From Thermococcus gammatolerans EJ3 (GTDB taxonomy: Archaea > Methanobacteriota_B > Thermococci > Thermococcales > Thermococcaceae): DNA of 64,000 nt. Below are positions 19,152 through 33,296 of the stretch, one piece after another. The notes below the pieces were generated by a model. It searched no databases. It had not been told where the DNA came from and worked only from the letters and a program-made list of their open reading frames with translations. The stretch spans positions 372,001 through 436,000 of the forward strand of contig NC_012804.1 of the NCBI RefSeq assembly GCF_000022365.1, read 5' to 3'. Each line of letters opens with the position of its first letter. Position 1 is the first letter of the stretch. The position numbers and the translations under genes are program-made.

Positions 19152-19229
19152 TGGTGGGCCCGCGGGGCTTCGAACCCCGGACCTCCCGCTTATCAGGCGG
19201 GCGCTCTGACCAGGCTGAGCCACGGGCCC
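19152..19229 (-). tRNA. tRNA-Ile (GAT)
   Basis: On the minus strand a full cloverleaf folds: acceptor stem GGGCCCG/CGGGCCC, D arm GCTC...GAGC, anticodon stem CCCGC/GCGGG with loop CTGATAA (anticodon GAT at 19192-19194), and T arm CGGGG-TTCGAAC-CCCG. Discriminator A and a genome-encoded CCA end follow. There is no intron. It lies ten bases from tRNA-Glu in the same direction, so both probably come from one transcript. Confidence 0.96.
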
Positions 19230-19239
19230 GCGAGAATTC

Positions 19240-19317
19240 TGGTGCCCCGGCCGGGATTTGAACCCGGGTCGCGGGATCGAGAGTCCCGCATGATTGACCG
19301 GGCTACACCACCGGGGC
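19240..19317 (-). tRNA. tRNA-Glu (CTC)
   Basis: On the minus strand: acceptor stem GCCCCGG/CCGGGGC, anticodon stem CGGGA/TCCCG with loop CTCTCGA (anticodon CTC at 19279-19281), T arm with GGGTTCAAATCCC, discriminator A and encoded CCA. No intron. It is the upstream member of the two-tRNA unit. Confidence 0.95.
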
Positions 19318-19345: not shown

Positions 19346-20494
19346 TTAAAAAGTTTTCGGATCGAGGAGGAGCGCTGCGAGGAGATGTGCCAGCGCCCAG
19401 GCAACTCCGATCCCCGTTATACCCTGCCTTGTCAAGAGGAAATAACCGAGGATAAGGAAGGATAAGCCCCTAACTAGATTTATCGCCAGGATCCTTCCTG
19501 CGGCACCCTTAACCGTAAGTCCAGAAATCCCAATGTAGACGAGTCCAAACGGCCCCAGCCCGAGTGCGATCATCTTGAGCATCGGGAGGGCGGCGAGGTA
19601 GTCCCCACCAAAGATCTCGAGGATTGGCTTTCCAAGCCAGAAGATGCCGACAACGGCGAGGACCCAGTAGGAGAGTACGAGAGCAAGTGATTTTCTGAAA
19701 AGCGCCTTTTCCCCGTCCCGTATAAGGATAGTTGAGAGTGCCACTATTGGAGTCATCATGAGGTTTCCGATGGTGAAACCTATGTAATAGTAGCCAGTCC
19801 GCGCCTTCCCAAGCTCCACGAGGACTATCGTTGGCATCAAATAGAGGGGGAGCACGTTGACGATGGATCCAAGGTAGTTGCTCAGGGACAGCGCGAGACT
19901 TTCTTTTATGAACTCGACATCGATTGTGAAGGAGACCTGCTCCCGGAACTCAGTCAGTCCCAAAGCCGAAGCGATGGCCAGGCCGAGAGAAGTTGCCAGG
20001 ATCATGCCACTTGCCTTCAGGCCCCGAAAGATGGGCAGAAAAACGACCCTCAGGCCGTACAGGGTGCTCATCTTAACGTACACTTCCGTCCTACAGAGGG
20101 GGATGGAGATGAAGCCTAGGGCGTTGTAAAGGGCTCCAAAGAGACCCAGCAAATAGGCTCCTACGATAAGCCCAGGCCTTTCAAAAACCTTTCCAGGGTT
20201 CATCAGAACGTACGCGGTCGTGAACCCGGTTGAGAGCAATACCATAGCCGTTACCGTCGTGCCGGCGGCTCCCTTTCCGTAGATCCTGTGGAACCTCACG
20301 AGTCCAATGTTCAGCCCGAGTGTGGATAGGGCGAAAACCAGGTTCATGAAGGATACGAGTGCCGAGGCAGTACCTATCTCATCCGGAGGGTACAGTCTGG
20401 CTGCAAAGAGCCAGAAGAGGAGGCCGCTGAGGGCCATTATTATAGTTCCGAGGGTCAGGTCGGTCGTTGACCTTAGGAGAGCCCTCAATCCCAC
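19346..20494 (-). CDS. Wzx/RfbX-like polysaccharide flippase
   Basis: A 382-residue membrane protein with about 11-12 hydrophobic helices and little soluble sequence, resembling the MOP-superfamily oligosaccharide flippases (COG2244). The N-terminal LFWLFAARLYPPDEIGTASALVSF (about 23-46) is the typical first-two-helix signature. It probably moves a lipid-linked glycan across the cytoplasmic membrane. The GTG start at 20494 (or TTG 20488) overlaps the end of aglB by about ten bases, so the flippase is translated right after the oligosaccharyltransferase. At 382 residues it is somewhat short for the family (400-500). Confidence 0.78.
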   Translation of the reverse strand: MGLRALLRSTTDLTLGTIIMALSGLLFWLFAARLYPPDEIGTASALVSFMNLVFALSTLGLNIGLVRFHRIYGKGAAGTTVTAMVLLSTGFTTAYVLMNPGKVFERPGLIVGAYLLGLFGALYNALGFISIPLCRTEVYVKMSTLYGLRVVFLPIFRGLKASGMILATSLGLAIASALGLTEFREQVSFTIDVEFIKESLALSLSNYLGSIVNVLPLYLMPTIVLVELGKARTGYYYIGFTIGNLMMTPIVALSTILIRDGEKALFRKSLALVLSYWVLAVVGIFWLGKPILEIFGGDYLAALPMLKMIALGLGPFGLVYIGISGLTVKGAAGRILAINLVRGLSFLILGYFLLTRQGITGIGVAWALAHLLAALLLDPKTF

Positions 20495-22830
20495 CCATCC
20501 GACCTCCTGAAGACTCCCCTGTCGAGGATGACGTTGTCCCTGAGATATGTATACCTTATCACGACTCCCTTAACCTCTGGGGGTATCTTGAACTCATTCA
20601 TCCCTGAGACGTTGTAAGCCCGCTGGAATACCATCTTCCCCGAGTCCGTGTAACCGTATACCCTCAGGGTGTTTCCGGTCGCGTTTTCGAATTTGAGAAT
20701 TCCTTCCTCACGGACGAGGGCTACGTTTGGGTGAAGGAGCCGGAAGATCTTGACCATCCCACCGTCCGTGTAAACGAGCGTGTAATCCTTGGGGTAATTG
20801 TTCGTGAACATGAGCCTCGCAAACGGAGTCCTAAACGTCTCCCCATCCATTAATACAGCGTAGCCGTAGTTGAAGTTGACGTACAGGTAAGCGTTGCCTG
20901 CTTTTTTCCCGGTTACGTTTGCGATGTAGACTCCGTTTTTATCTTCTATCCACGTTTCGTTGGGTATGAACTGAGCACCTCCAGCGTTAACGAGCACGTC
21001 CCACGTTTTTTCATTCTTCCTTACGGCCACTTGGTAGTTACCGTTCCGGAATATCACGGTGTCCCCGTAGGCCTCCCCGAAGGGTAGGAGGATGAGGACG
21101 TAACCGTTTCCCTGACCGGCGGTTGCTTTGAGCGAGCCCCACTTGAGCATCGTGTCGAGGGAAACCGTGACGTAATCCACCCCGAGCTCCAGGAGATCCT
21201 CCTTTGTAGTTTTCCCCAGGTAGAACGTCGAGACCAGCTCGCTCGGCGTCCCCTGTGCGACTGCCGCCCTGTGAGCAAAATAAGTGACCCAGTGGCCGTG
21301 ATCCCACCAGGTGAGTACTATGTCGTTTTCATTCGAGCTGCCTTCCAAGTACTTCAGGGCAGTTTCCCAGTGCTCATCGACTATGGGTTTCACCTCGTAC
21401 GTGGCCTTTACGGAGTGGTAACCTCCTATGAGCAACAGAACCGCAACGGCGAGGATTCCGAAGGGGCGGGCATCATTCTTTGTCAGTTTGAGGAACTCTG
21501 CCCCACCGATGCCCCCAAGGAGGGCAAGGCCAAAGGATCCGAGGAATAGGAAGCGGGTCCAGTACAGGGGAAGCAGAAGCAGTGGGAGGGCCGAACCGAG
21601 GGCGAAGGCGTCACAGAGCTTCGGCTTTCTCAGGGAGAGCGGGTAGAGAAGAAGGAAGAGCAGGAGCACGTGGTAGGCCGTCTTGATGTCCCACCACCCG
21701 GGTCTTGACATCTCAGCCGTTGCCGCCCCACCGAATGCACTTAGCCCGGCCGAGAGTATCTCCAGCGTGTTCCCGTACCTCCAGAGCAGCCCAGTGAAAA
21801 CGAGAACAGTAACCGTTAGCGTGCCAGCGGTTCCGATCTTTCTGGCCTTCTCCGGAATTTTTGACTTAAGGACCCACAGCAGGGCGATCATTAAGACAGT
21901 CGCTGGGAGGATAATGAGGAGATGGAGACCGAGGTAGGCATCTTGAAGGGGCCCGGGGCTTATTCCTGTGAGCTTTAGGAGCTTTTCCCCCTGCCAGTTC
22001 TCCACCCAGAACATCCCAAAGCCAAAGACCCTGCCAAGGAGAGAGGCTACAACGGCCGCTATTCCCGTTGAGAGTGCCATTAGAAGGCCGTCCATTAAGT
22101 CCTTTCCCCTCAGGAAATAGTAGGCTGAAATGCCGAGCGCAACGAATAGTGGGAGAACGAGAACGATGTAGTAAGCGCTCCAGAAGGCGCTTGAAAGTCC
22201 CCCGGCGAGGCCACCCAGTGCGTAAAACGTTGCTTTTCTTCGGAGGTTTTTCTCAAATAGGGCGAAGGAGAAGAAGAGGAGCACGAGGGAGTACCAGAAG
22301 AGGGCGTAGTTATCACCCCTGTAATAGTTCGACATGGATCTGAAGATGTGTCCAAAGGTTAGGGCCAGGATGAGAGCGGAGAGCAGGGCAGCCTCCTTGG
22401 AGTGTATCCTCTTAATGGTGTAGTAGAGCGCCAGAACGGTGAGAGTTCCAAAGATTGGGGGGGTTAATTTGAACGCGCCGTAGACGGACAGACCAGCCCA
22501 TTTCCCCAGGATGTAGACGGTGTAGGGCGCACCCCACAGACCTTTGGGGTGAAAGTGGTTTATCAGGAAGCCCCACGGGCCGAGGGCGTAGGGGAAATAG
22601 TTCACCCACCCGTGCTCCGTCACGTACTGGAGATATGCCAGATGGAAGTACGGGTCGTAGCCTATCGGGTACTTGAGCCTGTAGGGGATAACCCGTATGA
22701 GGAACGCGATCAGCGCTATGAGTGCGGGAGCAAGGTGGTGTGGGGATTTAAGCCGTTTAAGTGCGGCGGTTTTTTCTTTCTTGTTGCCCCTTTCAATTTC
22801 GCCCTTCTTCCTTCCTCTCTTTCTCGCCAT
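20485..22830 (-). CDS. aglB: Oligosaccharyltransferase AglB/STT3
   Basis: A 781-residue integral membrane enzyme that transfers a lipid-linked oligosaccharide onto Asn in N-x-S/T sequons of exported proteins. After a basic N-terminus, about 13 transmembrane helices span residues 30-460. The first loop has IGYDPYFHL (metal Asp, about 56-64) and the second acidic motif is YRGDNY (about 178-183). The soluble domain begins with the invariant WWDHGHW (about 510), the sequon-binding WWDxG motif. ATG 22830 has GGGTG at suitable distance. It is shorter than the roughly 970-residue AglB-L of Pyrococcus and may be a second paralogue. It is followed by a flippase and is divergent from a sequon-rich repeat protein. 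Confidence 0.92.
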   Translation of the reverse strand: MARKRGRKKGEIERGNKKEKTAALKRLKSPHHLAPALIALIAFLIRVIPYRLKYPIGYDPYFHLAYLQYVTEHGWVNYFPYALGPWGFLINHFHPKGLWGAPYTVYILGKWAGLSVYGAFKLTPPIFGTLTVLALYYTIKRIHSKEAALLSALILALTFGHIFRSMSNYYRGDNYALFWYSLVLLFFSFALFEKNLRRKATFYALGGLAGGLSSAFWSAYYIVLVLPLFVALGISAYYFLRGKDLMDGLLMALSTGIAAVVASLLGRVFGFGMFWVENWQGEKLLKLTGISPGPLQDAYLGLHLLIILPATVLMIALLWVLKSKIPEKARKIGTAGTLTVTVLVFTGLLWRYGNTLEILSAGLSAFGGAATAEMSRPGWWDIKTAYHVLLLFLLLYPLSLRKPKLCDAFALGSALPLLLLPLYWTRFLFLGSFGLALLGGIGGAEFLKLTKNDARPFGILAVAVLLLIGGYHSVKATYEVKPIVDEHWETALKYLEGSSNENDIVLTWWDHGHWVTYFAHRAAVAQGTPSELVSTFYLGKTTKEDLLELGVDYVTVSLDTMLKWGSLKATAGQGNGYVLILLPFGEAYGDTVIFRNGNYQVAVRKNEKTWDVLVNAGGAQFIPNETWIEDKNGVYIANVTGKKAGNAYLYVNFNYGYAVLMDGETFRTPFARLMFTNNYPKDYTLVYTDGGMVKIFRLLHPNVALVREEGILKFENATGNTLRVYGYTDSGKMVFQRAYNVSGMNEFKIPPEVKGVVIRYTYLRDNVILDRGVFRRSDGWD

Positions 22831-22918
22831 CCCTGGCACCCGATTCGGATTGACTTCTTCATATATATCTCTGACGGAAACGTTATATTGTTAAAGGCCG
22901 TAGGGTGGTCTCGTGGTG

Positions 22919-23728
22919 ATGTCCTTGGAGAAAAAGCTCAAGGCCTGGCTCGGCATCCTGACAGTGCTCGTTTTGATTCTCCTGCTGATCGACGCTGCGG
23001 CGGTAATGTTTGCAGTTAAGATCAAGGGAAAAGCGGCTTCCTCTGTTGATCAGGCCATCGAGTCCCTTCAGGATTTGAAGACCAAGACGTTTCAGGTGAA
23101 GGTACCGATCCACAAAACGGTAAAGGTTCCCGTGAACACAACCGTCAGGGTGCACGTTTCAAAGACATTCCACGTAAGGATCGAGAAGACGGTTGAGGTT
23201 GAGGTGGACAAGAGCTTTGAGGTGAACATCTCCGACACCGTCGATGTTCCGATAAACCAGGAGGTAAGTTTCAACGTGCCCATCGATCAGGTCGTTAACG
23301 TGCCGATAAACACGGTAACGAGGGTACACATAGTTCAGACAGTCAACACCACGGCCTACAACAGGGAGAAGAACCTCACCCTCAACGTGACCGTTCCCAT
23401 AGATAAATGGGTAGACGTCCCGATAAACACCACTGTTAAGGTTCACATAAACACCACAGTTCCCGTCACGACCTTGGTGAACACTACCACCTCAGTTCCA
23501 ATAAACACGACCGCAGTCGTTCCGTTTCACGACAAGCTGGAAGTGCCCATAAACACGACCGTTGATGTGCCCTTTGACGACTACTTCGACGTTCCCATAG
23601 ACCAAGAGCTCGAGGTTCCCATCGATATGGAGTTCACGATGAACCTAACGGCCGAGGAGCTGGGCCTCAATGAGATGATAGACCAGGCCGTTCAGATGCT
23701 CGAGGAGATAAAGGCAGGTCTCGGGTGA
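22919..23728 (+). CDS. Membrane-anchored octapeptide-repeat, sequon-rich protein
   Basis: A 269-residue protein of unknown function. One N-terminal transmembrane helix (about 11-33) is followed by a short helix (42-56) and then about 20 repeats of eight residues (about 60-240). The consensus is V-[PH]-[IVF]-[NDE]-x-[TVE]-[VFL]-x, for example VPINTTVK and VPIDQELE. The alternating hydrophobic pattern predicts a beta ladder or solenoid. At least ten N-x-S/T sequons, mostly NTT, fall in the repeats. The C-terminal helix (251-266) closely resembles the helix before the repeats (VDQAIESLQDLKT against IDQAVQMLEEIKA). ATG 22919 is chosen after GGTGG. It is divergent from aglB and precedes two glycosyltransferases; it may be a glycosylated surface or stalk protein. 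Confidence 0.8.
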   Translation: MSLEKKLKAWLGILTVLVLILLLIDAAAVMFAVKIKGKAASSVDQAIESLQDLKTKTFQVKVPIHKTVKVPVNTTVRVHVSKTFHVRIEKTVEVEVDKSFEVNISDTVDVPINQEVSFNVPIDQVVNVPINTVTRVHIVQTVNTTAYNREKNLTLNVTVPIDKWVDVPINTTVKVHINTTVPVTTLVNTTTSVPINTTAVVPFHDKLEVPINTTVDVPFDDYFDVPIDQELEVPIDMEFTMNLTAEELGLNEMIDQAVQMLEEIKAGLG

Positions 23729-23775
23729 GGGTTAAACCTAAAAGTCCACTCCTTCAATTTTTTCCAGGTGAGGTG

Positions 23776-24885
23776 ATGGACGTTTCAGTAATTCTGCCGA
23801 CGATGAACGAGGAAGAGGCAATAAGGGTAGTTCTCCCCAGGATAAAGGGCGTCCTCGATGGAATGGGACTCGATTATGAGATCATAGTAGTGGACAAGAG
23901 CAGTGATCAAACGCCTGAGATAGCCAAAGGGCTCGGTGCGGTAGTGGTCAGACAGAGGGGTAGGGGTTACGGAGATGCATATCTTGAGGGGTTCAGGAGG
24001 GCCAGGGGGAAGTACGTCCTAATGCTCGATCCCGACGGGAGCTACGATCCCGAGGACATACCTGCAATTTTGGAACCCCTTCTTAAGGACGAGGCTGACT
24101 TCGTGATCGGTTCTCGCTTAAAGGGTGAGATGGATCCGGGGGCTATGCCCTGGCTTCACAGGAGGATCGGCAACCCCCTCCTGACGTGGGTCTTGAACCT
24201 GTTCTTCAAGGCCGGAATTTCGGACGCCCACTGTGGCATGAGGGCCATAAAGCGTGACGCCCTTGAAAAACTCCCCCTCAAGTGTAAGGGCATGGAGTTC
24301 GCCAGCGAGATGGTGATAGAGGCGGCGAAGCACGGGCTCCGCATAAGGGAGGTCCCGATACGATATCATCCCCGGATAGGGAAATCAAAACTGAGCTCCT
24401 TCAAGGACGGCTGGCGGCACCTCAGACTGATGCTCCTATATTCCCCGACCCACCTTTTCCTGATCCCCGGGCTCCTGCTTCTCACCCTCGGTCTTTTCCT
24501 CCTGGCATACACCTACGTTTTCGAGCCTATAAGGCTCCACACCATGATACTCGGCTCCCTTCTCCTTATCACGGGGACTCAGGTTCTCGGCTTCGGCGTC
24601 TCGGCCAAGGTTTACGCGGTTAAGGAAGGTCTTGAAAAACCGGATCGGATTACGGGCTTCTTTATGAGGTATTCCATCCTCGAGGAGGGCCTCTTGGTTG
24701 GGGGGATTCTCCTGCTCATGGGTCTCGTCTTGGGTGTTAGGCTGTTCCTCCAGTGGAGGAATGCCAACTACGGTGCGCTGTTCCACATTCAGGAGGCCAT
24801 CCTGATACTGACCCTCATAACCCTCGGCCTTCAGGTGGTCTTCTTCTCCTTCTTCATCAGCGTGTACATGCTCAAGGAGGGTTAG
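23776..24885 (+). CDS. GT2 glycosyltransferase, dolichol-phosphate-sugar synthase-like
   Basis: A 369-residue family-2 glycosyltransferase. The N-terminal catalytic domain (about 1-225) shows VILPTMNEEEAI at the start, the DPDGSYDPEDI metal/nucleotide motif (about 91-101) and the GMRAIKRDALEKL acceptor region. Four hydrophobic helices fill residues about 225-369, as in archaeal dolichol-phosphate mannose or glucose synthases that carry their own membrane part. It would load a sugar from UDP- or GDP-sugar onto dolichol phosphate on the cytoplasmic face. ATG 23776 is preceded by AGGTGAGG. It is followed after 2 bases by a GT4 gene. Confidence 0.87.
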   Translation: MDVSVILPTMNEEEAIRVVLPRIKGVLDGMGLDYEIIVVDKSSDQTPEIAKGLGAVVVRQRGRGYGDAYLEGFRRARGKYVLMLDPDGSYDPEDIPAILEPLLKDEADFVIGSRLKGEMDPGAMPWLHRRIGNPLLTWVLNLFFKAGISDAHCGMRAIKRDALEKLPLKCKGMEFASEMVIEAAKHGLRIREVPIRYHPRIGKSKLSSFKDGWRHLRLMLLYSPTHLFLIPGLLLLTLGLFLLAYTYVFEPIRLHTMILGSLLLITGTQVLGFGVSAKVYAVKEGLEKPDRITGFFMRYSILEEGLLVGGILLLMGLVLGVRLFLQWRNANYGALFHIQEAILILTLITLGLQVVFFSFFISVYMLKEG

Positions 24886-24887
24886 CC

Positions 24888-26027
24888 TTGCGGATCCTCA
24901 TAGTTTCCCCCTATTTCCCCCCTGAGGGTGGTGGGCTTGAGAGCTATGCAATTGCCATGGTCGAAGAGCTCTCGAAAGAACACGAGGTTCGGGTTATATG
25001 TATGAGCAGGTTTGGTTCATCGAAAGAAACCCTGCGGGTTCAGGGAAAGGCCGTACCTCTCGAGCGCGTGAAGGGCTTTGTCCTCTCGAATACACCCCTG
25101 AGCCTGAGGTTCACTCTGAGGCTTTTTTCAATCGTCAAAAACTGGAGGCCCGACCTGATAATAGCCCACACCCCCGTTCCCTTCGCCGCGGACGTCGCCG
25201 CCCTCGCCTCCGCTCTCTTCGGCGTTCCCCTCATAATCGTATACCACACCCTCGGATTGAGGAAGGGGGCCCTCCTTGATGTCATTGCCTCAATTTACTC
25301 GAAGACCCTCGAGCGGTTTACTCTCTCTCGGGCGGCGCTTTTGGTGGCGGTTTCTCCGTCGGTCAGGAATTACCTCAGAGAAACGGGCTTTCGTTCCGTT
25401 GTTGTCCCTCCTCGACCGAAGCTGGAACTTCTCAGCGCGGCTCAGAAGAAACTTCCCCCTAAGGAGAAGATCGTCCTTTTCATCGGTCAGCTCTCTTCCT
25501 TCCATCGCTTCAAGAACTTTGAACTCCTCCTACGGGCCTTCGCTCAGGCCTCGAGGGACCATCCTGACTGGGAACTGTGGGTCGTTGGAGGTGGGGATGA
25601 ACTGCCGAAGTACCGCACCCTCGCCCGGGAGCTCGGTCTGAGCAAAAGAGTCAGGTTTTTCGGTCCGGTCTCCGATGCAAAAAAGCTTGCCGAGATCTAT
25701 TCCAGGGCCTCAATCGTGGTTCTTCCTTCATCCTTTGAGTCCTTTGGGCTTGTCGTTATTGAGGGAGCCATCTTCGGTGCCATCCCCCTTGTTTCGGGTG
25801 CAGTGGCGAAGAATATCTTTCCTCTATATCCTGGGGTTGGCAAGGCCTCTTACGTGTTACGGCAAAAGGCGGAGCTTTCTTCGATGTTAAGCGAGCTGTT
25901 TGGGCATCCGAAAACTTTAAAAAAGCTTTCTGCAATGCTGCGGGAGACTGAGGGATCCAGGAAATCCTTCAAACGGTTTAGATACATCAGCGTTCTTTTA
26001 GAACTCAATCTTTTGGAAAAATTTTGA
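24888..26027 (+). CDS. GT4-type glycosyltransferase
   Basis: A 379-residue GT-B fold enzyme. The N-terminal ILIVSPYFPPEGGGLESYA is the typical acceptor-domain start, and the C-terminal domain has VLFIGQLSSFHRFKN and the E-x7-E motif region LPSSFESFGLVVIEGAI (about 280-296) that binds the nucleotide sugar. It would extend a lipid-linked glycan or glycolipid in the cytoplasm. The start is TTG 24888, two bases after the GT2 stop, with GGAGGG at 24876-24881 as ribosome-binding site. It is co-transcribed with the GT2 gene. Confidence 0.85.
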   Translation: MRILIVSPYFPPEGGGLESYAIAMVEELSKEHEVRVICMSRFGSSKETLRVQGKAVPLERVKGFVLSNTPLSLRFTLRLFSIVKNWRPDLIIAHTPVPFAADVAALASALFGVPLIIVYHTLGLRKGALLDVIASIYSKTLERFTLSRAALLVAVSPSVRNYLRETGFRSVVVPPRPKLELLSAAQKKLPPKEKIVLFIGQLSSFHRFKNFELLLRAFAQASRDHPDWELWVVGGGDELPKYRTLARELGLSKRVRFFGPVSDAKKLAEIYSRASIVVLPSSFESFGLVVIEGAIFGAIPLVSGAVAKNIFPLYPGVGKASYVLRQKAELSSMLSELFGHPKTLKKLSAMLRETEGSRKSFKRFRYISVLLELNLLEKF

Positions 26028-26192: not shown

Positions 26193-29100
26193 ATGAATAA
26201 GCGCAGGAAAGCGCAAATTTTTAGCCTGATGCTGGCATTTTTAATGCTGGCATCAGTCATTCCAGGGACGTTCCTCAAACCAGTGAGCGCTGCTGGTTAC
26301 ATTACTAGTGTTAGTGCCGAGACTAACTACGGAGATGGAGTTCTGTTTGCAGGATTCCCGTACTTCGTTAACGTAACAATTAACGCGAGCTCCAGTACTT
26401 TCGCAAACGTTACCCTCTACTACGAGTACCAGGATGGACACAACGTTACAGTGTACTCGAGAGTTGTTCCGATAACATCTCCCCCAGGATCAATAAACGT
26501 CCTCATAAACTCGAGCGACCCGACTGATGTTCCTCCGGAGTATGAGAAGGTGCCGCAGGACGTCAGCAAGGTCTACCTCATCGTCTACGAGTACGACATA
26601 GCCAACGGCAACATCCCGGGAACCAACAGGACCTTTGAGTTCGACGTTAAGTTCCCGTTCACAGTTACCTATACGATTCAGAGCTCTCCCTCAGCTAACT
26701 GGCAGGCCTACTACTGGAACGGAAGTGCTTGGGCAGATGACCAGGCCTTTGTCGGAATGCCGTTTGACATCAAGGTTACCATCAAGTACAACAGCACACT
26801 CATCGGAAGTGGAGTTACCCTTCCCGATCCGAGCAACCTCACGGTTATACTGGCAAACCAGACCCCTGTGACTTGGTATCATGTAGGCACCGGCACTGAG
26901 AGCAATGGTCAGATTGCACTGCAGTTCGAGAATGCGAACCTCTCAACTGGAGAATATAACTTCTCCGCAACAGGCCTCGTTACAAACACCCCAATACTCA
27001 ATGGTGTCCTTGAGAGGATTGTTGTTGAGGACAATGAGAACAACCTTGTTAACTCGATCCACACGTTCCACATCTGGCCACTTGTTATGGAGATAACCAA
27101 CGTTGAAACCCAGCCGCCAACCCTCTATCAGAACCTCCCGTTCAACGTCACCCTCACTGGCCAAGTGTTTGCCAACATTAGTGGTACGCTCCACAACTTC
27201 ACCATCGTGGGTTCGAGTTTAGAGGGCAGAGAAGCAAAGATTGTGGACTCAGATGGTAACAGCCACACCATGACGTTTGGATTTGCAACTGGCTTAGTTC
27301 CGAACGGTGGAATAGGAACTGCCCACTGGACAAACGTCCAGTTTAGTGGAACATACTTCAATGCTACATGGGCAGACAACATCCTATATATCCCAGTAGA
27401 GCCATTTGGTGCGGGTTACTATTATTATCCACGTTATAAGACAATAGACTATCAGTATAACCCGATACCCCTTAACTACTGGAACCTCAACGTTATCACC
27501 AGCGTGACCATCAACGGCCAGAGCTCGAGCGTCTTCTACATCAACGTCCCAGGTGAGCTCAACATAAGCGTCTACTACGATGACACCAACTACTACAACC
27601 TCACCACAACTGCTAACTATGAGGTACTTCTCAACGGCAACGTCATCGACAGCGGAACCATCAACGTTGTCAACGATACCGGCTGGACAGTCACCACGAT
27701 CACCCCGGACGAGCTCGGCATGATCAGCGTTAAGGTCTGGGATCCGGTCTACCACCCAGATCCAGCTTACAGCCCGCAGATTGAGGTCAGGGACTGGAAC
27801 GTTACCAGTGACTACCTCGTCTACTACCACTACGGTGGATCAATCTACCCAGGAAAGGTCTTCTACGTTGGAGTTCCTTCCGACCTGTGGGTCAACGCTA
27901 CCTACACCCTCGGCGTAAACCTCACCTCCAGCGTCAACGTCACCGTCTACGATGAGCACAACAACATAATCAACAGCACTATCATCCCGATAACCAACAA
28001 CTACGGTGCGGGATTCGTGCTTCACAACTTCGTCCCGCCGCAGATCGGCTACGTCACCGTCAAGGTCTACAACGGCACCTACAAGGTCTGGACTACCTAC
28101 GTGATCCCCATCAAGGACTGGGGCATCTACGTTGACAGCACACCGGAGAACCTCACCGTCGGCAAGTCAGTTCCGCTTACGGTCGAAGTCAGGGAGAGCC
28201 TCTACTTCCCAGGTGAGAGGGACGCCAACGTAACCCTGTACCTACCCGACGGTACTGTCAAGACCGAAACCGTTACCCTTGAGGGAAGCACATACACTGG
28301 CAATGGAGGGTACTATGGAGTTGTCACGTTCACTAATGTTACTCCAACCCTTCCTGGTCTCGCTAAGGTTGTCGTTGAGGATCTAACCTCTGGCAAGACC
28401 GCCGTCAAGTACATCCCGGTTTACCCGAACGGCGAGGTAACCGGCAGGTGGATCGACGTCAAGGTTACCCCCGAGAAGACCCCGGTTTACGCTTACGTTG
28501 AGAACTCCCTCAGGATTGACGCCCAGTACTACTACAACATGGGCGATGGCGCTTACAAGGACGAGGTTAACAGCTACGTCAACATAACTATCATCGATGC
28601 CGACGGCAGCACTTACAAGCTCAGCAACGTTCCGGTCGTCAACGGCGTCGTTACCATACCCAGCTACCAGCTTCCGGTCAACGGAACCAGCCCAATCTAC
28701 GTCGAGCTCGTTGATACGATCAACAGCAGCATCCGCGGTGTTGCTGAGATACCCGTCCAGAACTGGCAGGTCACCTTCGACATAACCCCGGACTTCGTCT
28801 ACCAGTACGTTGACAGCATAGCAAAGATAACCGTCCACGTTCCGGCCGGCGTCGCCGTTGACGTCAACGTCAGCGGAACCGTTTACACCGGCGTCACCGA
28901 CGGCCAGGTCATAAGCATACCGATAGTTGACCCGACCGAGGCCATAGACGTTAACGTCGTCGCGACATACCACAACGCCGTTGCCGGCAAGGACTACGAG
29001 GTCGGAAGCGCGAGCAAGACCATCGAACTCAGGGGCTGGCACGTTGAGCTCTCCTACAGCCCGAGCGTCATCTACACCCACATCCCGGACACCCTCGTCG

Positions 29101-32100
29101 TCAACGCGGTAGCCGTCGACAACGAAACGGGTGAGATACTGCCGTTTGAGCTCGATGTTGCCCTCTACAACGAGACACTCGACGTAGTTGCCACTGGCAC
29201 TAACACCGTCAGTGTCTCAATTCAGGACGACGTTGGTGCTGGACTGACCTACTTCGTTACAGTTAGCTATGGCGCTCACGAGATGGTCACCTACGAGCCA
29301 ATACTCATCGACACCCACGACTGGGCCATCGATGTCACCAAGACCATAACCTCAAGCGCCTACAGCGGAACTGACTACCTCTGGGCAGGAGTTCCGGCCC
29401 AGATAACCTTCAGCGTCGTTACCTACGACCTTGACACCGAGGAGCAGATCAACCTCCCGGTCAGCATACCGATCAACGTTACTTACAACGGCTACACCTA
29501 CACCGGAACCGACTCTATAACGATCAACCTCGCCTCACCAGAGCCGGCCAGCGAGGCTTTCCACGTTGAGGCTGCCTACGAGGACATAAGCTACGTCAAT
29601 GACTTCGTCATCCCGGTCAAGGACTGGAGCATCTACGTCAACGCCTACCCGAGCAAGCTCTACGCCGACCTGCCGCAGCAGCTGACCCTCATAATCGGCT
29701 ACAGCGCTGGAATCGAGAGCGTCGCCACAGTTGACGTTGGTGGAACCACCTACACCGCCCACGTCGAGCCGGTTGGTGAGGACAGCGCCATAGCGGTCGT
29801 CAACGTTGGCGAGGTCGTCGCCTCCGAGGGCTACGTCCGCGTCACTGTCACCGACCAGTACGGCAAGACGGCCACCCTCAAGATACCGGTCGTCAGCTGG
29901 GACATCGCGGTCACCTCGAACGTCAACTTCGTCTACACAAACGTCTCAACTGACATCACCGTTGACGTCCACTACAGTGACAGCATGCTCGACGGAAACG
30001 CCAACGTTTACCTCGTCCTGCCGGATGGAACCGTGCTGAGCCAGACGGCTATCATCCTCGACGGCAAAGGTCAGGTTACCTTCACCGGCGTTACCGCTGA
30101 CAGGGCTGGTAACATCACCATCTACGCCGAGGACGCTGCCTCCGGCAAGAAGAGCGACAACATTACGATCGAGGTCCACGACTGGCACATGGAGGTTACC
30201 CTTGAGCCAACCGAGTGGTACACCTACCTGCCGCAGGACTACACCGTTGGAATCAAGTACATTGACGATGTTACAGAGGGTATAGCGGACATTGACTCAA
30301 CTGTGGAGGTTAGCTACAACCTCACAGGTGTCACCGGCAGCGAGCTCGTCGACGTCACCGGTGGTCAGGGAGAGGTCACCTTCACAGGCCTCGCTACTGA
30401 GAATGCTGGCGTCGGAACCTTTACTGTAACGGACGCTGCCCACGGCAAGAGCAGAATCGTCAATGTAACCATCCACGGATGGAACGTCCTCGTCACTTAC
30501 CCGGAGGAGCTCTTCGTTGCTCCGGGCTACAAGAACCCGGTCGTCGTTGGCTTTGAATACATTGCCGATGACAACAGCACTGTTCCGTACACTGGCAACA
30601 CTACCATAACGATTGAGCTCCCCGGCAACATAACCCTCAGCGCGAACGTCAACGCCAGCCCGGTTGACTTTGGAATGATCGAGCTCAACCAGACGGGCGT
30701 TGGAACCATAACCGTTGTTGCCAACGACTACCCGGCCATCAGTTTCACTGGCACCATCCAGGTTGAGAACCTCCTCGAAATGAACCTCACCACCAAGAGG
30801 ATCTACGAGAACGTTCCGACTGAGATCGTCGCCAACATAACCTACAACGGCGGTGACTATCACGAGCTGGAGGTCTACATTGAGGGACAGAACATAACCC
30901 TGACCACTACAGACGGTCAGATATGGACTGCCGAGGTCAGCCTCCCAGCTGGCAACTACACGGTCGTTGCCTACGACACAGCTCACAACATTACAGTCAC
31001 CGACACGTTCCACGTCGTCCCATGGCACCTTGAGATAATTCCAAGCACTACCAGCATCTCTGCGGGTGACCTTGAAGTGGTTAACTTCACAGTCAGGGCC
31101 ATTGACGATGAGACCAACGCCACCGCTGACATTGACGCTCTAATACACGTGCAGATAACCTTCAGCAACCCAGCACTCATACCGAACGGTACCTTCACCG
31201 TTGAGGACTTCAACCTCGTGGACGGCGAGTACACCTTCAACGAGAGCCTATTCGCACCAGCTCCGGGCAACTTCACCGTCAAGGCCATGGCAGTTGACTA
31301 CGGCAAGTGCGCCAAGACAGTTATCGAGGTCACCGAGCCAACCGTTTCGCCAACCTGGGTTTACGTAGACATAGTCAAGGAGGGCAGCCTTGAGGCTCCA
31401 AACGACACAGTTGTCCTCTACTGGTCTGTCGACGGCAGGACGTACTTCCCGGCCTACGACTACCTCAAGCAGGCCATAGTTCAGGTTGACACAACCGTGA
31501 CTACGAGGGTTGTCTTCCCGCTCTACCCGGTCAATGAGTTCACCCTCTACGTGATAGCTGTTCCGAAGTTCATCGCCGACAAGTACCCGATCCTCACATC
31601 CACGCCAATCGATGCCACTGTCACCCACGAGTACGTCTGGTACAACTACTCTGTCACAGTCGTCAACGAGACCATAAGCGCCAGCGCAGTTGTCTACAAG
31701 AGGACCATAACCGAAGGCTGGACCTACCAGATCCCGAGGGCTCCCGGTTACATCTCAGTAATCCCACCCGCCTCAGTGCAGGGCATTGCTCCGTACACCG
31801 GCTATGAGTTTGTCCACACCGAGGAGCTCGTCAACGACACCGGTAGCGCGAGCTACACATTCACCTTCGAACCGACCGAGTTCATCGAGTTCAACAAGAT
31901 AAGCACTCTCAGCATCCAGCCTGCTCAGTACGGCTCATACTTCGAGTTCGAGGCAGTGCTCTATGAGAAGTACCTCAACATGAGCGGCCAGTTCGATGAG
32001 CAGTTTGAAGCCTTCGAGAGCAACGTCGAGAGCATGGTTGAGAGCCTGCAGTTCCTCAGCGACGATGACAAGCAGGAGCTCATAAACGAGATAATCAACG

Positions 32101-33296
32101 AGGCCCTCAGCTACAAGGACGACATCATCGGTGCCTATCCGGAGGACGAGATTCCGATCAGCGGCGCTGAGGTACAGTTCCACATCGACAACCCAGCCAT
32201 AGCGTACCTCGAGCCGGTCAACGCCACCACCGATGAGAACGGCAAGGTCATCGTTAGGCTCTACTCTGCCGCACCAAAGGACGCCACCCCAGAGGAGCTC
32301 GTCAACTACATGGGCAGCGTCACCATCTGGGCTACCTATGACAACATGACGACTGACAGCTACACGGTCTCCTTCGGTGGCATCGGTAGCGTATCCGGTG
32401 ACGTTGTCGACCCGAACAACAACCTCCTGCCTGGAGCCAAGGTCGAGCTCTGGATCAATGACAACGGTGAGTGGGTTATCGCTAAGGACTACGCTGGCAA
32501 TAACATCACCACCATCACCGACGGCCACGGCCACTACTCGTTCAACGTACCGGCTGCCCCGCAGGGAACCGCCTACAGGGTCGTTGCCTACTACGGAGAT
32601 GGCACCGGCTACGCGGACGTGATCGTCTATCCGTTCAAGACCAGCACTGCCGACGTCGTTGTCACAACCTACGAGACCACCAACGTTACCGGACTCGGAG
32701 CCTTCCTCAGCGACGCCCAGATCCACGACGTCAAGATAGTCCTTGGCAAGAACGCCCTCACATCAGTCGACTACCACGCTATGGACTTCCTCCTCGAGTA
32801 CATCGGTGTCAAGCCCGTCTACAGTGACAGCGACATCAACGTTGAGGGACTCTCCGCCACCGACATGATAATAGCCGTTGGTGGTCCTGAGGTCAACGAC
32901 ATTACCGCCCACTACCAGGAGCTTACTCCGGTCAGGATGGTCACCAACGCTGACGGTTCAATAAGCATCGTCGTCGACAACGAGACGGTCGCCAACTGGA
33001 GCGCCCCGAGCCCATGGTGGAACGTTACCGAGGGCTACTGGGTCATCCAGAGGGTCGTCGATCCGGACACCGGTGCAGTGGTCTACATGATCTACGGTAC
33101 CGACGCTGACAGCACCTGGGCTGCGGCTTACTACTTCAGCAAGCACTTCAGCGAGCTCAACAACGTCAACTACGTCGTTGGCTACTGGGAGGACACCGAC
33201 AGCATGATCTACAGCCCAGCGTTCCTTAAGTTCGCCAGCGACGACAAGAACGGATTCAGCCCGACCGATAACATCGGGGTAGTCGTTGAGGGCTGA
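26193..33296 (+). CDS. Giant S-layer-like surface protein with tandem beta domains
   Basis: A 2367-residue exported protein. The signal peptide (about 1-33) ends KPVSAA. The body is beta-rich, full of Thr, Val, Asn and Tyr, with many N-x-S/T sequons and almost no Cys. From about residue 535 to 1430 a Trp-centred linker ([IV]x[IV]xxWxxxV, e.g. IPVKDWSIYV) recurs every 90-110 residues, marking about ten Ig-like domains. A carboxypeptidase-regulatory-like beta domain follows near 2065-2145. The last 190 residues, with AVGGPEVNDI and a stretch of alternating Ala around ADSTWAAAYYF, look like the S-layer C-terminal domain of archaeal S-layer proteins. Probably a glycosylated wall component or large adhesin exported by Sec; it lies beside aglB and glycosyltransferases. 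Confidence 0.85.
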   Translation: MNKRRKAQIFSLMLAFLMLASVIPGTFLKPVSAAGYITSVSAETNYGDGVLFAGFPYFVNVTINASSSTFANVTLYYEYQDGHNVTVYSRVVPITSPPGSINVLINSSDPTDVPPEYEKVPQDVSKVYLIVYEYDIANGNIPGTNRTFEFDVKFPFTVTYTIQSSPSANWQAYYWNGSAWADDQAFVGMPFDIKVTIKYNSTLIGSGVTLPDPSNLTVILANQTPVTWYHVGTGTESNGQIALQFENANLSTGEYNFSATGLVTNTPILNGVLERIVVEDNENNLVNSIHTFHIWPLVMEITNVETQPPTLYQNLPFNVTLTGQVFANISGTLHNFTIVGSSLEGREAKIVDSDGNSHTMTFGFATGLVPNGGIGTAHWTNVQFSGTYFNATWADNILYIPVEPFGAGYYYYPRYKTIDYQYNPIPLNYWNLNVITSVTINGQSSSVFYINVPGELNISVYYDDTNYYNLTTTANYEVLLNGNVIDSGTINVVNDTGWTVTTITPDELGMISVKVWDPVYHPDPAYSPQIEVRDWNVTSDYLVYYHYGGSIYPGKVFYVGVPSDLWVNATYTLGVNLTSSVNVTVYDEHNNIINSTIIPITNNYGAGFVLHNFVPPQIGYVTVKVYNGTYKVWTTYVIPIKDWGIYVDSTPENLTVGKSVPLTVEVRESLYFPGERDANVTLYLPDGTVKTETVTLEGSTYTGNGGYYGVVTFTNVTPTLPGLAKVVVEDLTSGKTAVKYIPVYPNGEVTGRWIDVKVTPEKTPVYAYVENSLRIDAQYYYNMGDGAYKDEVNSYVNITIIDADGSTYKLSNVPVVNGVVTIPSYQLPVNGTSPIYVELVDTINSSIRGVAEIPVQNWQVTFDITPDFVYQYVDSIAKITVHVPAGVAVDVNVSGTVYTGVTDGQVISIPIVDPTEAIDVNVVATYHNAVAGKDYEVGSASKTIELRGWHVELSYSPSVIYTHIPDTLVVNAVAVDNETGEILPFELDVALYNETLDVVATGTNTVSVSIQDDVGAGLTYFVTVSYGAHEMVTYEPILIDTHDWAIDVTKTITSSAYSGTDYLWAGVPAQITFSVVTYDLDTEEQINLPVSIPINVTYNGYTYTGTDSITINLASPEPASEAFHVEAAYEDISYVNDFVIPVKDWSIYVNAYPSKLYADLPQQLTLIIGYSAGIESVATVDVGGTTYTAHVEPVGEDSAIAVVNVGEVVASEGYVRVTVTDQYGKTATLKIPVVSWDIAVTSNVNFVYTNVSTDITVDVHYSDSMLDGNANVYLVLPDGTVLSQTAIILDGKGQVTFTGVTADRAGNITIYAEDAASGKKSDNITIEVHDWHMEVTLEPTEWYTYLPQDYTVGIKYIDDVTEGIADIDSTVEVSYNLTGVTGSELVDVTGGQGEVTFTGLATENAGVGTFTVTDAAHGKSRIVNVTIHGWNVLVTYPEELFVAPGYKNPVVVGFEYIADDNSTVPYTGNTTITIELPGNITLSANVNASPVDFGMIELNQTGVGTITVVANDYPAISFTGTIQVENLLEMNLTTKRIYENVPTEIVANITYNGGDYHELEVYIEGQNITLTTTDGQIWTAEVSLPAGNYTVVAYDTAHNITVTDTFHVVPWHLEIIPSTTSISAGDLEVVNFTVRAIDDETNATADIDALIHVQITFSNPALIPNGTFTVEDFNLVDGEYTFNESLFAPAPGNFTVKAMAVDYGKCAKTVIEVTEPTVSPTWVYVDIVKEGSLEAPNDTVVLYWSVDGRTYFPAYDYLKQAIVQVDTTVTTRVVFPLYPVNEFTLYVIAVPKFIADKYPILTSTPIDATVTHEYVWYNYSVTVVNETISASAVVYKRTITEGWTYQIPRAPGYISVIPPASVQGIAPYTGYEFVHTEELVNDTGSASYTFTFEPTEFIEFNKISTLSIQPAQYGSYFEFEAVLYEKYLNMSGQFDEQFEAFESNVESMVESLQFLSDDDKQELINEIINEALSYKDDIIGAYPEDEIPISGAEVQFHIDNPAIAYLEPVNATTDENGKVIVRLYSAAPKDATPEELVNYMGSVTIWATYDNMTTDSYTVSFGGIGSVSGDVVDPNNNLLPGAKVELWINDNGEWVIAKDYAGNNITTITDGHGHYSFNVPAAPQGTAYRVVAYYGDGTGYADVIVYPFKTSTADVVVTTYETTNVTGLGAFLSDAQIHDVKIVLGKNALTSVDYHAMDFLLEYIGVKPVYSDSDINVEGLSATDMIIAVGGPEVNDITAHYQELTPVRMVTNADGSISIVVDNETVANWSAPSPWWNVTEGYWVIQRVVDPDTGAVVYMIYGTDADSTWAAAYYFSKHFSELNNVNYVVGYWEDTDSMIYSPAFLKFASDDKNGFSPTDNIGVVVEG

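Follow-up and report, generated by a model that had tools for sequence, protein, structure and literature searches.

The gene at positions 22919–23728 (forward strand) of the window, i.e., the 64,000-nucleotide stretch of Thermococcus gammatolerans EJ3 that was analysed (NC_012804.1, positions 372,001 to 436,000), encodes a membrane-anchored protein whose octapeptide repeats very probably form one giant two-stranded antiparallel hairpin, a reading drawn from sequence patterns. On balance, we consider it probable that this protein is a surface stalk. The computation supports a family of such proteins, the hairpin topology, arms of equal length, a charge register, the segregation of the two faces, and the genomic context. 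An earlier note, made from the letters of the sequence, had interpreted the gene product as a ladder or loop of repeats outside the membrane which might serve as a glycan carrier, stalk or ruler. That interpretation is supported in part.

The gene and its product

The reading frame is open over 269 codons plus a stop, and an alternative in-frame GTG start is found at 22913, 6 bases upstream of 22919. The dN/dS values between this gene and its orthologues in three relatives are 0.05–0.16, and the gene is thus real and its product under purifying selection. The protein is laid out as a transmembrane (TM) helix, a short helix, approximately 23 octads with the consensus [TK]-T-V-x-V-P-I-[ND], and a closing helix. 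The single TM helix, claimed in the earlier note and confirmed here, spans about residues 11–33 (22949–23017) and is part of a longer helix (residues 3–55) predicted by AF2. It is followed by the N-terminal base helix, residues 34–55 (VDQAIESLQDLKT; 23018–23083). The C-terminal base helix, also from AF2, comprises residues 251–268 (IDQAVQMLEEIKAGL; 23669–23722). All of these features are encoded on the forward strand.

Within residues 56–243, the autocorrelation of hydrophobicity has its maximum (0.65; z 8.2) at lag 8, where residue identity is 32% (z 9.9). The eight-residue repeat described previously therefore stands, while the count of about twenty has to be raised to about 23, two or three of which are 10-mers. 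The sequence contains 11 N-x-S/T sequons, including seven NTT, compared with 2.6 ± 1.4 in shuffled ectodomains; the noted richness in NTT is thus real, and the majority of the NTT sequons are on the C-terminal arm (residues 153–244). The two end helices resemble one another. Residues 43–55 and 254–266 share 5 of 13 identities with a BLOSUM62 score of 37, which was reached in none of 20,000 shuffles, and the likeness recurs (p 0.02 or lower) in all seven family members tested. They are similar, although "nearly identical", as they had been called, is too strong.

Topology of the repeat region

Models were calculated with AF2 from a two-row alignment of the query and one relative, and consist of strands at residues 57–104, 110–148, 153–191, and 197–244 (pLDDT 73; pTM 0.36). 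The same four strands were obtained, with no disorder, for residues 40–269 alone (pLDDT 78; pTM 0.45), the segment for which a prediction had been proposed, but only one of the five models from a single-sequence run was good. These segments are mirror-symmetric about position 150.5 (57 + 244 = 104 + 197 = 110 + 191 = 148 + 153 = 301). Disorder of the repeat region is ruled out by the strict alternation of residues together with the AF2 strands. Because the models are of low confidence, the hairpin was tested on sequence data, and the strand pairing rests on those tests. The predicted N-terminal arm (residues 57–148; 23087–23362) is rich in K and R near the base, and the C-terminal arm (residues 153–244; 23375–23650), with which it pairs by charge, is rich in D and E near the base. 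Between them, at the far end, the turn REKN (residues 149–152; 23363–23374) is the sole site at which hydrophobic parity switches; an NG turn takes its place in other length classes. Since the repeat region would be one hairpin with both helices on the membrane side, the idea that the ladder is closed by its helices is upheld.

The lengths of the arms were compared by setting anchors on the query (the invariant K54 plus 3, and LGL minus 4), applying these unchanged to the other members, and placing the turn independently at N-G or, in short members, at PxxG. The arms are 77/77 in L008 and L009 and 69/69 in five genomes from two genera, all with an N-G turn; in L007, with the same turn, they are unequal by 2 (72/74). 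The short members have arms of about 25/25 (25.5/25.5). For the query class, 94/94 was read off the AF2 register, so that this value is no independent evidence. Arms of 77 are exactly one octad longer than those of 69, on both sides, and the step up to 94 amounts to three octads plus one turn residue. These sequence comparisons suggest that the arms were kept equal while the family lengthened and shortened.

At the register fixed by the turn, 32 of the 35 facing pairs of charged residues in six representatives are opposite and 3 are the same, with the qualification that the six share ancestry and that the pairs are not 35 independent events. In 5000 shuffles, the net score averaged -0.5 (sd 4.7) and never exceeded 16, against the 29 observed here. 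Other even registers have a mean net of -0.6 (sd 6.5), and the runner-up scores 18 at a two-residue offset. More than 20 residues from the turn, there are 25 opposite and 3 same pairs, and beyond 40 residues 17 and 3, respectively. Joint changes on both arms occur in the 69-residue class; 40 residues from the turn, for instance, R-E has become D-K, and at 32 A-T has become E-K. Hydrophobic matching alone scores better at +2 or -6 than at the charge register, so the register is perhaps about 2 residues off.

The ribbon has V, I, and F on one face and T, N, K, D, and E on the other. In the query, all 14 prolines and all 11 sequon Asn residues are on the polar face, and in each of the 14 tabulated members every proline and sequon Asn is likewise placed. 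In a two-stranded antiparallel ribbon, the face of a side chain is coupled to the direction of hydrogen bonding. With the prolines all on one face, the missing NH groups would therefore point outward, where the ribbon tolerates them and where they block further edge strands. With both edges blocked by proline, the hydrophobic face would probably be covered by whole hairpins packing against one another through that face.

Outside the base, the best conserved part is the tip, which includes both sides of the turn (residues 135–169; 23321–23425; RVHIVQ..NTT...VPIDKWVDVPI in the query), as seen within A1 and A3 and also when positions are compared by their distance from the turn. Its consensus is [RK]-[VA]-H-[IV]-[VA]-Q-x-x-x-T-T on one side and P-[IL]-D-[TK]-[WY]-V-D-x-P on the other. 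The basic-acidic tip pair, R135–D166 in the query, is retained in the long classes, and the short members of the second family, f4, are without the conserved tip. A constant tip and base with arms of variable length is the pattern expected of a stalk.

Two other folds have to be weighed against the single hairpin. If each arm were itself folded back, the repeats would form a four-stranded meander of about half the length. The breaks in the AF2 arms at residues 105–109 and 192–196 are compatible with either reading, and losses of 8 residues at such bends would likewise preserve the equality of the arms. However, opposite charges at the single-hairpin register persist more than 40 residues from the turn, which favours one ribbon; this register outscores every other in L070, L071, L073, and L009, and outward prolines on both arms would disrupt the extra strand pairing. 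We therefore regard the meander as improbable. Still less probable is a parallel homotrimeric beta-helix needle built from octapeptide repeats in the manner of the C-terminal triple-stranded beta-helix of T4 gp5. The latter is also a rigid rod of eight-residue beta repeats, its octapeptides likewise carry Asn/Asp and Val (PMC3004832), and a weak match to Pfam Gp5_trimer_C (E value 1.7) was obtained. Yet gp5 is made of three parallel chains with a dominant, conserved Gly in each octad, whereas the hairpin protein would be one chain folded back with no glycine in residues 57–244, and a needle does not predict a parity switch at a single turn, arms of equal length, or antiparallel charge pairing. 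The gp5-type trimer was rejected on the absent glycine, the turn, and the symmetry of the arms.

The results from Foldseek searches against the PDB and BFVD include no meaningful match to the model of the hairpin. Long amphipathic hairpins of the pore-forming proteins lysenin and aerolysin are among the best PDB matches, but TM-scores of 0.17 or lower and rmsd values above 30 angstrom mean that there is no fold match, and there is no sequence relation. Assembly into a barrel is disfavoured by the prolines on both outer edges. No close precedent for a lone ribbon of such length was found in the PDB search, nor, in the libraries searched, a free-standing two-stranded hairpin with arms of 70–94 residues acting as a surface stalk.

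Distribution of the family

The hairpin protein has no family match in Pfam, NCBIfam, or PHROG, and no PDB chain was matched. By profile search, 20 of 94 Thermococcaceae genomes have a relative; with f4 counted as well, the figure for the class is 24 of 115 genomes. A profile from a wider alignment recovered the identical 24 genomes among 396 genomes from 216 genera, with no relative elsewhere in that sample. Matches in one other archaeal phylum, with E values between 1e-4 and 5e-3, were rejected as unrelated proteins or as a frame antisense to a repeat protein, and a match on a Halobaculum plasmid proved to be an unrelated acidic repeat protein; searches of phages, plasmids, and viral contigs gave no credible relative. 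A full-text search of open-access papers found no description matching the family or its architecture. Both are thus undescribed in the libraries and literature searched, in agreement with the earlier suspicion that no described family has this design. The membrane-anchored archaeal surface stalk is, as an idea, already known.

The distribution is patchy, and broken copies occur in four genomes (loci L075, L074, L078, and L077). The gene is frameshifted in G008 and G075 and in the second of the two copies in G015, and in G003 it is truncated at the 5' end. From both observations the gene is accessory and dispensable, although some of the breaks could be sequencing errors. In L072, a second, short C-terminal fragment of the family (G103:C1:266660-266767) adjoins an intact gene and is perhaps a remnant of duplication.

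Genomic context

On the reverse strand of the window, the divergent neighbour of the hairpin gene encodes AglB, an oligosaccharyltransferase of the STT3 family with 784 residues (20485–22839; Pfam STT3, E value 3.5e-11). It is followed by a flippase-like membrane protein (19346–20494), which has no Pfam match of its own and falls in cluster C4 with L060:4537-5874 (Polysacc_synt_3; E value 1e-5), and by a tandem of tRNA-Ile(GAT) and tRNA-Glu(CTC) at the edge of the cassette (19152–19317; ARAGORN). On the forward strand, directly downstream of the hairpin gene, are an AglJ-like family 2 glycosyltransferase (23725–24885; Pfam, E value 1.1e-29; NCBIfam AglJ, 8.4e-58, below its cut-off), a family 4 glycosyltransferase (24885–26027; Pfam, E value 7e-25), and a giant secreted surface protein of 2367 residues and 67 sequons (26193–33296), with a signal peptide and without a C-terminal TM helix. 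The latter has weak matches to Big_1 and CarboxypepD_reg and is conserved downstream of the cassette. It is possibly the main substrate of the neighbouring AglB and the partner of the hairpin tip.

This order, with the flippase-like gene and aglB on one side and, divergently, the hairpin, AglJ-like, family 4 glycosyltransferase, and giant surface protein genes on the other, is found in eight Thermococcus genomes, one of the eight contigs ending inside aglB. The divergence from aglB that had been described thus holds in 8 of 8 close relatives, and homologues next to aglB in related genomes are present. The tRNA-Glu/tRNA-Ile tandem flanks the cassette wherever the contig extends that far; in G036 and G003 it also flanks the hairpin gene, there with a different surface protein as partner. 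Eight sampled Thermococcus genomes have an aglB homologue (52–70% identical) at the same tRNA site without the hairpin gene. Because of these eight sites, the hairpin gene is better regarded as an exchangeable gene of the cassette than as an essential partner of AglB, and an obligate AglB or oligosaccharyltransferase subunit is ruled out.

The tandem (19152–19317; L059–L063, L065, L068, L074) marks a variable surface locus across Thermococcus, where it flanks either aglB with dTDP-rhamnose genes, the cassette of aglB, glycosyltransferase, and hairpin genes, or a pair of hairpin and surface-protein genes. Other hairpin genes adjoin rmlA, rmlB, and rmlC, which belong to dTDP-rhamnose synthesis, or flippase genes, and in G015 (L077) the order is rmlA-aglB-hairpin. 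In L066 and L067, the copy with arms of 77 follows a DUF1616 gene within a MoxR/DUF58/DUF4350 cluster, a position that hints at a connection with this uncharacterised membrane system. The f4 members have housekeeping neighbours, none of them related to glycosylation. The giant surface protein neighbours the hairpin gene in eight loci, while L068 and L074 have a surface protein of unrelated size (L068:6172-8688, L074:9549-11762) beside the gene with arms of 72/74. Over a region of about 100 residues this protein is 34–38% identical to the window's giant protein, and its C-terminal end is made up of a T-rich stretch followed by a TM helix and RRRK.

Proposed role and alternatives

In the proposed stalk, the N-terminal TM helix and the short helix after it would lead into a continuous two-stranded antiparallel beta-ribbon. 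The chain would run outward for about 94 residues, turn, and return over 94, placing the C-terminal helix beside the N-terminal one at the membrane. Reckoned at 0.33 nm per residue for a fully extended chain, which twist would shorten, the maximum reach would be up to about 31 nm for arms of 94 and 25, 23, and 8 nm in the shorter classes. The hydrophobic face would be buried, most likely by two or three copies packed face to face, and the base helices and TM helices may form an oligomeric bundle. Binding would likely take place at the conserved tip, probably to a surface-layer protein, and the length of the arms would set the stand-off distance. Where the gene is linked to aglB, glycans carried on the polar face may make the rod stiffer or shield it. 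The oligomer, the tip partner, the surface-layer role suggested by the neighbouring genes, and the glycosylation of the hairpin protein are what we infer beyond the computation. Of the roles offered in the earlier note, "stalk or ruler" agrees best with arms that vary and a tip that is conserved.

That note had also offered a dense N-glycan carrier. Such a protein would be a mucin-like rod modified by AglB and acting as a coat, shield, or receptor decoy, with its length incidental. The 11 sequons of the query, all on the polar face, and the cassette that the gene shares with aglB, a flippase-like gene, and two glycosyltransferase genes are in keeping with this, as are the 8–14 sequons throughout the aglB-linked class. 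As a general rule it is not supported, since other length classes keep the architecture with 1–6 sequons and several of them do not adjoin aglB. Going by sequon counts, it is only in the aglB-linked class that the protein could plausibly be densely glycosylated, and we consider a carrier unlikely to be the function of the family. A function as an accessory of the glycan machinery, i.e., as a scaffold or adaptor outside the cytoplasm that serves AglB, the flippase, or the assembly of glycans, appears more doubtful still. It would account for the divergent arrangement with aglB in all eight close relatives and for the proximity elsewhere to rmlA, rmlB, rmlC, or flippase genes, including the rmlA-aglB-hairpin order in G015, but not for the eight sampled genomes with aglB at the tRNA site and no hairpin gene, nor for the L066/L067, L068/L074, and f4 loci, where the hairpin gene has no glycosylation genes nearby.

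For the stalk, the closest known system is SlaB of the Sulfolobales S-layers, and also tetrabrachion of Staphylothermus, which are likewise membrane-anchored archaeal surface stalks. SlaB forms a glycosylated stalk of about 20 nm, and its gene is beside that of a large surface-layer protein (PMC5744192). It differs in that its TM helix is at the C-terminus and in possessing a coiled coil and beta-sandwich domains, where the hairpin protein has an N-terminal TM helix and a helix-ribbon-helix plan; no sequence relation between the two was found. The envelopes of T. stetteri have two 5-nm layers spaced 10–12 nm apart, compared with the 20-nm stalks of the Sulfolobales (PMC5744192).

Tentatively, the family might represent a new fibrous design, in which a tethered beta-ribbon of a single chain has its reach set by the number of octads, both arms changing together in register, and acts as an evolvable ruler that determines how far a surface layer or display tip stands above the archaeal membrane. 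How fibrous beta proteins grow longer could be tested cleanly on the matched evolution of the arms, and protein design would profit from a stable rod of hyperthermophile origin. The family also provides a definite experimental target for how the surface layers of Thermococcales are kept off the membrane. Should the role as a stalk be wrong, the family would still add a new accessory component to the variable glycosylation loci of archaea.
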